Assembly: GCA_937981515.1 (NCBI GenBank)
Contig: CALJNY010000130.1
Location: 1 to 14,016, forward strand
Source: an uncultured Collinsella sp.
Lineage (GTDB): Bacteria; Actinomycetota; Coriobacteriia; Coriobacteriales; Coriobacteriaceae
Length of the DNA: 14,016 nucleotides
Reading direction: 5' to 3'
The position numbers were made by a program, and so were the translations under genes. The first letter of the stretch is position 1, and each line of letters starts with the position of its first letter. The notes below the pieces were generated by a model. That model did no database searches. It saw nothing but the letters and a program-made list of their open reading frames with translations, and was not told the DNA's origin. Shown piece after piece: positions 5,797 through 7,925 of this stretch.

Positions 5797-5800
5797 AAAT

Positions 5801-5946
5801 CGAGCGTGGATTTTCTTCCGTTTGAAATCGAGCGTGGATAATCTCCCACTTTGCCGTGCCATCGAATCCAAAGTGGCAGATTATCCACGCTCATTCACTA
5901 GGCGGAAGATTTTCCACGCTCGTGTGTCCGATAATCCACGCTCGAT
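5801..5946. repeat. nested inverted repeat built of five GAGCGTGGAT-type cores
   Basis: Two forward copies (from 5801 and 5829) and three reverse copies (ending near 5892, 5922 and 5945) share GAGCGTGGAT/ATCCACGCTC or one- to two-base variants. The pairing is nested: the inner pair, 5829-5853 with 5869-5892, extends through a CCACTTTG/CAAAGTGG block, and the outer pair, 5801-5820 with 5903-5922, extends through CTTCCG/CGGAAG. The result is a rod of about 120 nt with a 15-nt loop, plus an unpaired fifth core at 5929-5946. The cores include TTATCCACG, one base from the DnaA box TTATCCACA. Confidence 0.8.
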
Positions 5947-5972: not shown

Positions 5973-6192
5973 ATGTCTCGACCTGTAACAGTAAGAGGGT
6001 TATTCCTCCCCTATCTGTTACAGATCGAGATGTTTCGCAGAAACCCCCGCTTACGTCTCATTCTGTAACAGTAAGAACGGTTTTCAGCCTCTTCGTGTTA
6101 CGGATCGAGATGTTATCGGCCTTCCCTTGGCAATGTTTCGATCTGTAACTATAAGGAGGGTCTTCAGCCCACTCGTGTTACGGATCGAGACA
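5973..6192. repeat. three-unit palindromic array with an exact 80-bp period
   Basis: Units at 5973-6032, 6053-6112 and 6133-6192 are each 60 nt and are separated by two dissimilar 20-nt stretches. Counted by hand, identities are about 45/60 (1 vs 2), 46/60 (2 vs 3) and 42/60 (1 vs 3). Each unit is an interrupted palindrome: a TCTCGA-xCTGTAAC left arm and a GTTAC-xGATCGAGA right arm flank a variable centre. Register is kept to the base, and differences are substitutions, not indels. No ORF explains it. The repeats are too long and degenerate, and the spacers too short, for a CRISPR array. Confidence 0.85.
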
Positions 6193-6512: not shown

Positions 6513-6575
6513 ATTCGCCAGAACGAATAGTTTTAATTACAATTGCTATATATAAAACTATTCGTTCTGGCGAAG
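6513..6575 (+). promoter_or_regulatory. 22-bp perfect inverted repeat, likely operator of the HTH-HipA gene
   Basis: Arms at 6514-6535 and 6553-6574 are exact reverse complements separated by 17 AT-rich bases. Each arm is also close to a dyad of its own: ATTCG-N6-CGAAT at 6513-6528, and ATTCG-N6-CGAA(G) at 6560-6575. The two dyad centres are 47 bp apart. A -10-like TATAAA (6551-6556) lies between the dyads, without a good -35. The right arm ends 10 nt before the start codon, so a bound repressor would block this promoter. Autoregulation by the HTH domain is an inference. Confidence 0.7.
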
Positions 6576-6584
6576 GGTTTCGCG

Positions 6585-7925
6585 ATGCTTACTACCAAAG
6601 AAGCCGCCGAGCTGCTCGGCATCACTCCGCGCAGGGTGCATGAGCTCATAAAAAACGGAGCACTTGAGGCCCGCAAGGCTTCTGGTGTATGGCTCATCGA
6701 CAAAGACAGCGTCGACACGCGACTCCGCTCTGTGACCAAAACGGGGGGACGTCCCCGCCGCGGCCACGGTAAGAGCGAGATCGCGTTCACCCTCATGAAC
6801 CGCACGTACGAAGTCGCTCAGCTGGTCTACAGTACATCGCGAAAAGACTTTACCCACATCGGTGCCGACATCGATTACGCCCACGCCCCTATTGGAGTAT
6901 TTGGCCCTAATAGCCCCATATCGCTAGACTCCTTCCGCATCTGGTGGCGCGGCCGCGGTATCCCGCTCGCACGCATTGGGCTAGCCTCCCTGCTTGCAGA
7001 AGCCGCAGTCGATGTTCCCGATGAACTCGTCCAGCGAAATCTCGGCCTCTCCTTATCCGACCAGTATTGGATTAGGCCCCAAGGTTCCGGTCTCACCTGG
7101 GAGGATATCAACTTCTTCAATAACGCCTTTGATGACGTCTCGCTGTCCATTGCACCCTTTGCCCCAGAGGGAAAAGCGGCTGCCGCAAAGCCCGATAACA
7201 CCTCGGACGGCAATCTTCAAAAGTATTGGACGTGCGAGGGCGAACGTCGAATTCTGCATAAGGCAGGAGCGCACCTGGACCAGGAACCTTATAACGAGCT
7301 GGTGGCGACCGCGCTCCACCGTCGCATCCTAAACGCCTGCGATTATGTGCCTTACTCGCTCGAGGGCACGGGCACTTCCGCCCTGAGCACATGCGATGTC
7401 TTCTTAACTGATGAAGAAGAGTATGTCCCTGCGTTCTATGTAAACCAGCACGCAAACGCAGATGAACGGCTAACCGACTACGAGCGATATGTAGCAAACT
7501 GCGAGGAGCTCGGGGTGGCAGGCGTCAAGGATGCCCTTGACCGCATGATCGTATGTGACGACATCATTGCCAACTACGATCGTCATTGGCGCAACTTCGG
7601 CCTCGTGCGAAACGTCAACACGCAAGCTTGCAGACCTGCCCCCATCTTCGATTCGGGCTCATCGCTCTGGTGCAACATATCACTAGAGGAGCTTAGGGCG
7701 GGAGAGCACAGTTTTACCAGCGCACAATTTCATTCAAGCCCCGCCAAACAAATGTTGCTCGTCGAGGACATGGGCTGGTTTGGCTGCGACAAACTCGAAG
7801 GCTTCGTTGACGAGGCAATCGAGATTCTTTCCAGAAACGACGCGCTCACGGCAAGGCTGCCATATCTAAAAGAGGCGCTAACGTGGCGCCTCGAAAGAAT
7901 GATCGACATCGCTGAATGGAGTTAG
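6585..7925 (+). CDS. HTH domain - HipA-like kinase fusion protein
   Basis: A 446-residue protein. Residues 1-45 are an excisionase/MerR-type helix-turn-helix (LTTKEAAELLGITPRRVHELIKNG, then a GVWLIDKDSV wing). A middle region (about 67-200) has no motif I can name, although LSLSDQYW and TWEDINFF look conserved. The C-terminal half resembles the HipA Ser/Thr kinase fold: K226 in RRILHKAG as candidate ATP lysine, NYDRHWRNFG at 330-339 as catalytic loop (D332, N337), and D356 in APIFDSGSSLW as metal-binding aspartate. HipA proteins are toxin kinases usually paired with a separate HipB antitoxin; here the DNA-binding part is fused. Start ATG 6585 follows AAGGG by 7 nt; an upstream TTG (6543) would lie inside the operator. 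It is a single gene, convergent with yacP. Kinase activity and toxicity are inferred. Confidence 0.75.
   Translation: MLTTKEAAELLGITPRRVHELIKNGALEARKASGVWLIDKDSVDTRLRSVTKTGGRPRRGHGKSEIAFTLMNRTYEVAQLVYSTSRKDFTHIGADIDYAHAPIGVFGPNSPISLDSFRIWWRGRGIPLARIGLASLLAEAAVDVPDELVQRNLGLSLSDQYWIRPQGSGLTWEDINFFNNAFDDVSLSIAPFAPEGKAAAAKPDNTSDGNLQKYWTCEGERRILHKAGAHLDQEPYNELVATALHRRILNACDYVPYSLEGTGTSALSTCDVFLTDEEEYVPAFYVNQHANADERLTDYERYVANCEELGVAGVKDALDRMIVCDDIIANYDRHWRNFGLVRNVNTQACRPAPIFDSGSSLWCNISLEELRAGEHSFTSAQFHSSPAKQMLLVEDMGWFGCDKLEGFVDEAIEILSRNDALTARLPYLKEALTWRLERMIDIAEWS

Follow-up and report, generated by a model that had tools for sequence, protein, structure and literature searches.

Why should a stretch of Collinsella DNA carry three similar palindromes at exactly equal distances? 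The question arises from 14,016 nucleotides of contig CALJNY010000130.1 (uncultured Collinsella sp., assembly GCA_937981515.1), here called the window, in which 57-bp palindromic units begin at positions 5975, 6055 and 6135, with start-to-start spacings of 80 and 80 bp. Each unit consists of 16-bp inverted arms flanking a 25-bp core. The array is flanked by tRNA-Tyr and tRNA-Thr(tgt), and tuf and the gene for ribosomal protein L1 lie nearby. An initial annotation, made from the letters of the window, had proposed either protein sites at a fixed register or a repeated structured RNA. The register and the protein sites are retained here and the RNA is not; a link to a nuclease-like gene outside the window and a second repeat family inside it were both absent from that annotation. 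The array is probably one member of a genome-resident population of sites of the nuclease-like protein P0001, which would work in the manner of RAYT transposases and their REPIN repeats, with an unrelated enzyme.

Distribution of the unit and its association with P0001

A two-arm pattern search allowing up to 2 mismatches was applied to 43 Collinsella genomes. It detected 26-67 units in 22 genomes (the carriers), 1 unit in 3 and none in 18, and the reversed pattern, used as control, had 0 matches in all 43. The unit family is not a product of chance. Of 39 related genomes, 14 had BLAST-type matches to the window array, and all 14 belong to the 24 genomes from the same genus. With a 63-position profile under strict filtering, with 18 candidates scored per listed genome, 23 of 296 genomes of the class were matched, all Collinsella (1 genus of 125); matching records are named Collinsella aerofaciens or Collinsella sp. 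A search of phage records gave no result.

P0001, a protein of 358 amino acids, appears to combine an AbiEi-like half with a second half that resembles Vsr and homing nucleases. It is likely the cognate protein of the unit. Orthologs with at least 84% identity are present in 19 of the 22 carriers, one of them broken by a stop, while the 21 non-carrier genomes have no ortholog and best matches of 43% or less. Common descent confounds this co-occurrence, the carriers being, to present knowledge, a single related group. Units stand on both sides of the P0001 gene at 17 of the 19 ortholog loci, i.e. at all 17 uncut ones; the remaining 2 are truncated at a contig end, with units on the surviving side. 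In genome G008 the gene carries arrays on both sides. Furthermore, the catalytic acidic and lysine residues of the PD-(D/E)XK/Vsr-type fold are conserved. Genome G015 has no P0001 gene; its DNA on either side of the locus can be aligned at 91%, and one unit stands where the gene and its units were; the gene has evidently been lost there by recombination between units. In the one genome whose P0001 neighbourhood was examined, the neighbour P0002 has no Pfam or NCBIfam match, the other neighbours are annotated as metabolic genes, and no operon with an AbiEii nucleotidyltransferase toxin was found at the locus.

In genome G022, which otherwise lacks the unit family, locus L201 holds at 1503 one unit with a core shortened to 20 bp and a truncated second unit ~76 bp further. 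This is perhaps a transferred copy decaying where the cognate protein is absent.

Repeats flanking P0001 paralogs

The second repeat of the window lies beside the array:

5797-5946, half-sites on both strands: GAGCGTGGATWWTC-like repeat with five half-sites, at 5802 and 5830 (plus strand) and at 5883, 5912 and 5934 (minus strand)

It was found in 20 of 22 carriers; outside the carriers it had one match in each of 3 of the 21 genomes. A P0001 paralog of ~34% identity has this repeat on both sides of its gene in all 6 orthologs checked. Among 20 P0001 paralogs with flanks read, 12 have at least one 12-mer common to both flanks. For a class-wide set the best 80 of 352 relatives were taken, yielding 79 loci from Collinsella, Enorma, Olsenella, Atopobium, Slackia, Limicola, unnamed Coriobacteriia and one Bifidobacterium; 76 of these were testable, and 3 lay too near a contig end. 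A locus passed the flank test if at least five 11-mers were common to both flanks, with mechanical open reading frames (ORFs) at least 1 kb away as controls. This was the case for 50 of 76 paralog loci, among them the one from Bifidobacterium, compared to 2 of 196 control ORFs. Without the P0001 orthologs 35 of 60 loci passed, and with redundancy removed 24 of 43 groups. Inverted repeats of at least 13 were present in either flank at 49 of 76 paralog loci and 40 of 196 controls.

Several of these repeats also occur elsewhere in the genome. The palindrome flanking the paralog of C. stercoris (G055) is present in 15 copies around the chromosome; a search of the other 42 genomes found no palindrome of this kind, and a lone arm with 3 mismatches in two of them. 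A third repeat class has 17 BLAST places in the annotated 0.9-Mb record described below, where one palindrome can count once per strand.

The C. stercoris palindrome forms two sub-families that differ in both arms. Likewise, at an Atopobium UBA2090 locus (L319) the upstream and downstream palindromes differ, each being self-complementary, with both arms changed together. Beside a P0001 paralog of Olsenella profusa (L293, 3670-4000) the 20-bp word GGGTGCGAATCGGGCCGTGT is repeated several times head to tail and is followed by a palindrome.

Conservation of arms, cores and spacing

The array of the window is laid out as follows:

5975-6031: unit 1, with left arm 5975-5990, 25-bp core 5991-6015 and right arm 6016-6031
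6032-6054: spacer between units 1 and 2, 23 bp, weakly conserved across the family
6055-6111: unit 2, with left arm 6055-6070, core 6071-6095 and right arm 6096-6111
6112-6134: spacer between units 2 and 3, 23 bp, weakly conserved across the family
6135-6191: unit 3, with left arm 6135-6150, core 6151-6175 and right arm 6176-6191

A recount confirmed three palindromic units in exact 80-bp register. Taken as 60-nt units from 5973, 6053 and 6133, they have pairwise identities of 75.0, 70.0 and 76.7%, and the two 20-nt stretches separating them, rightly described as different, share 6 of 20 letters. The arms of units 1, 2 and 3 are complementary at 14, 12 and 13 of 16 positions. Only two units are present at this locus in some relatives (L001, L008, L009, L099, L118 and L120).

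Across the family the lengths are nearly fixed. With cores of 20-30 bp allowed, the core measures exactly 25 bp in 200 of 203 unique units that have at least 22 matching arm letters (205 unique in total), and all 136 neighbour spacings below 90 bp at the fetched loci fall at 79-81 bp; these counts are not independent because the fetched loci include many mutual orthologs. In a logo of 130 non-redundant units most arm positions are near-fixed, TTT stands at the centre and TAG/CTA just inside the arms, and the remaining core positions and the spacer are weakly conserved.

In 29 equal-size orthologous array pairs (five genomes and the window) the arms show 0.046 substitutions per site and 0 gaps, the cores 0.186 and 2 gaps, the spacers 0.183 and 8 gaps, and the flanks 0.075 and 45 gaps. 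Cores thus evolve about four times faster than arms at nearly constant length, which bears out the initial description of conserved arms around diverged centres. The gap contrast should be conservative, since the flanks include coding sequence. Acceptance of a unit required 25 or more of the 32 arm letters and a core of 23-27 bp, and the 28 of 57 compared pairs that differ in unit number were excluded; larger changes may therefore be hidden. Array loci are common to different species.

The arms do not covary. Paired cells amount to 88.9% observed and 88.8% after shuffling, and the covariation score is 0.127 versus 0.125. At arm pair 6/52 the two sides vary independently (G-T 0.25, C-A 0.22), and pair 1/57 has C-A at 0.15 and G-T at 0.28. 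Because the arms lack covariation, we take the repeat to be a DNA site, not an RNA. Of what had been proposed initially, the protein sites stand and the repeated structured RNA is not supported. Core complementarity falls below chance at several symmetric positions (17/41, z -4.9), which may reflect avoidance of long perfect palindromes.

Arrangement and copying of arrays

All places of the pattern were collected in two genomes, giving 17 arrays with 42 units in G015 and 20 arrays with 44 units in G008. In an annotated 0.9-Mb record 13 of 13 arrays are intergenic: 5 lie between convergent, 5 between codirectional and 2 between divergent genes, and 1 between tRNA genes. The orientation of units is mixed within arrays. 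The 17 arrays of G015 are spread over the chromosome, on which dnaA lies at 1.734 Mb, and clustering at terminus or origin was rejected. One stretch of ~0.64 Mb (0.40-1.04 Mb), roughly opposite dnaA, has no units; it may represent depletion near the terminus, the sampled GC skew being too weak to place the terminus.

Sharing an array adds hardly anything to the similarity of two units. Within-array and between-array similarity in G015 is 0.52 and 0.51 for cores and 0.36 and 0.35 for spacers; the values for G008 are 0.55 and 0.50, and 0.36 and 0.35. In agreement with the initial annotation, the arrays are not recent tandem copies. Similar cores in different arrays exceed the expectation from column shuffles in G015 (7 vs 0.58) and G008 (9 vs 0.66), and no such excess was found in G040 (0 vs 0.20). 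Some of the similar pairs belong to lac-type loci that lie next to each other and contain duplicated genes, as annotated in G008 and inferred from gene order in G015. Two cases concern whole doublets. In G008 a 150-bp two-unit block is 85% identical at two unrelated loci (L033/L055), and the similarity stops no more than ~10 bp from the doublet edges; in G015 a 141-bp two-unit block is 86.5% identical without gaps (L043/L045). Among the array pairs listed, most others align at about 67-80%, and doublet sharing between unrelated loci was seen in few cases. To judge from these alignments, the copied piece may be the doublet, in which case the 80-bp register would travel with the block.

Proposed mechanism and alternative explanations

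In the mechanism that we propose, the AbiEi-like half of P0001 would attach cooperatively to the inverted arms, in the way AbiEi antitoxins recognise inverted repeats, and neighbouring units 80 bp apart would be bound as one complex. The Vsr-like half would then nick or cut at units, and repair would copy, expand, contract or delete units and doublets. The 80-bp register would reflect the geometry of the bound complex and also be carried along in copied blocks. Several steps rest directly on sequence: sites flank P0001 on both sides, many divergent paralogs have repeats of their own common to their two flanks, several such repeats also occur elsewhere in the genome, nuclease residues are conserved, arms and lengths are constrained, two-unit blocks seem to have been copied, and recombination between units has deleted P0001 in one genome. 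Binding, cutting and copying by P0001 itself are inferred.

Some results weigh against this proposal. Three carriers have no P0001, so that the protein was rejected as strictly required, and their arms are not clearly more decayed; either P0001 was lost recently or the arrays serve another purpose as well. The flank test failed at 26 of 76 paralog loci, and a set of 75 proteins was selected by motif, which lowers our confidence slightly. The persistence of arrays in the three genomes would also suit a role as binding sites only, in which P0001 or another protein sits on the phased arrays as regulator or nucleoid organiser, the complex being useful and the nuclease activity unrelated. Strict phase, conserved arms, cores nearly without length change, array loci common to several species and units directly 5' of the P0001 reading frame agree with such a role, and AbiEi proteins autoregulate via inverted repeats according to PMC7319586. 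Nevertheless, we consider it unlikely: the 13 intergenic arrays lie in mixed gene context with no evident common gene function, scattered paralog-specific palindromes, also 3' of the gene, misfit simple autoregulation, and the nuclease residues are conserved. We see still fewer grounds for an ordinary repeat of the REP (repetitive extragenic palindrome) or MITE (miniature inverted-repeat transposable element) kind, spread in trans by a Y1 (IS200/RAYT-type) transposase with P0001 as passenger, and hold it to be very improbable. The unit is indeed palindromic, doublet-rich and REPIN-like by the description in PMC3116915, and Y1_Tnp genes are present in 22 of 22 carriers; however, they are also present in 15 of 21 genomes without arrays. 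The 10 Y1 loci inspected, 7 from carriers, contain no unit, though this leaves most Y1 genes of the remaining carriers unread. By coordinates units flank 0 of 4 Y1 genes in G015 and 0 of 5 in G008, the nearest lying 1.7 kb from an array, and the unit logo has no fixed GTAG tag. A RAYT/Y1 transposase as mobiliser is not supported, the Y1 genes being without flanking units where looked at.

Two further explanations have a still lower probability in our judgement. Strong folding of the window units (z -8.1, -5.2 and -6.2 on the plus strand; -8.3, -2.8 and -3.2 on the minus strand) speaks for a repeated structured RNA, be it a terminator, a small RNA or an mRNA stabiliser. An RNA hairpin was rejected despite this folding, given pairing no better than in shuffles, C-A mismatches as frequent companions of G-T at the variable arm pairs, low core complementarity and mixed orientation within arrays; tRNAs were the sole matches in an Rfam scan of the window. 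A survey of structured-RNA candidates in human microbiomes (PMC8040213) mentions palindromic candidates, and its accessible part does not describe the arrays. The differing unit number in 28 of 57 orthologous pairs would suit an old local tandem duplication kept in register by unequal crossing-over. Array neighbours are, however, hardly closer than units of other arrays, two genomes have 17 and 20 separate arrays of the family, core length is constrained, and duplication as sole cause is refuted by the genome-wide copies. The initial annotation would have settled for such a duplication if units occurred nowhere else and the arms had no compensatory changes; units do occur elsewhere, and compensatory changes do not rise above shuffles.

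The cognate factor was also sought next to the array. The gene from the ATG at 6585 (6585-7925) encodes an HTH_17 and HipA_C-like protein (HipA_C E 0.0003, below the curated cut-off). Homologs of at least 95% identity were found in 8 of 30 genomes searched, every one a carrier. This neighbour was rejected as cognate factor, since only 8 of 10 carriers searched have such a homolog and G040 and G043, with only a 40% paralog, keep 43 and 58 units. Directly 5' of the ATG lies a long inverted repeat (6514-6574, arms 6514-6535 and 6553-6574), which looks like an autoregulatory operator of this gene.

Beyond the window, the data may point to a new class of AbiEi-Vsr fusion nucleases, each with co-evolving scattered palindromes that nuclease-directed copying would have spread, with members in Coriobacteriia and beyond, of an origin independent of RAYT-REPIN and with phased 80-bp arrays in this lineage; we advance this as a tentative possibility, somewhat short of an even chance. 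If true, a second, unrelated enzyme family would have its own palindromes, and such enzyme-repeat pairs would have arisen more than once. An uncharacterised nuclease-like family would gain a function, and intergenic repeats of gut bacteria would be explained. With a site specified by each paralog, many natural pairs would be available for direct tests of binding and cutting specificity.

Comparison with known systems

In the openly licensed part of the literature nothing was found on such Collinsella repeats or on DUF559/AbiEi-type nucleases with palindromes. As initially concluded, the array is not a CRISPR: units are palindromic, with variable cores, and within the window their identity is 70-77%; this judgement included no search for cas genes. 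Unlike AbiEi antitoxins and Rv2827c, P0001 has a nuclease-like half, no recognised toxin partner adjoins it, and its sites are scattered genome-wide. The Vsr-fold homing endonuclease I-Bth0305I has one split target, whereas P0001 sites are multi-copy palindromes flanking the gene. Enterobacterial bacterial interspersed mosaic elements (BIMEs) are intergenic mosaics of palindromic units with regular spacing, and the Collinsella arrays are alike in these respects and differ in sequence, size and host.

REP-type repeats are common in bacterial chromosomes, and to our knowledge RAYT transposases are the only cognate enzymes known for them. The Collinsella units measure 57 bp, with a mostly non-pairing 25-bp core and a strict phase of 80-81 bp, and the 130-unit logo has no fixed tag of the kind of GTAG or CGTC ending a 20-40 bp palindrome. 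The enzymes also differ, P0001 being an AbiEi-like/Vsr-like protein and RAYT a Y1 HuH transposase; enzyme and tag are the features that define the RAYT family. Nevertheless, by the accounts of RAYT (TnpA_REP) and its REP/REPIN repeats in PMC3116915, PMC3733652 and PMC8266576, both systems have scattered extragenic palindromes that also flank the gene of the known or likely cognate enzyme, and both have tandem arrangements; the doublet, proposed as the copied unit of RAYT systems, may be so in Collinsella too.
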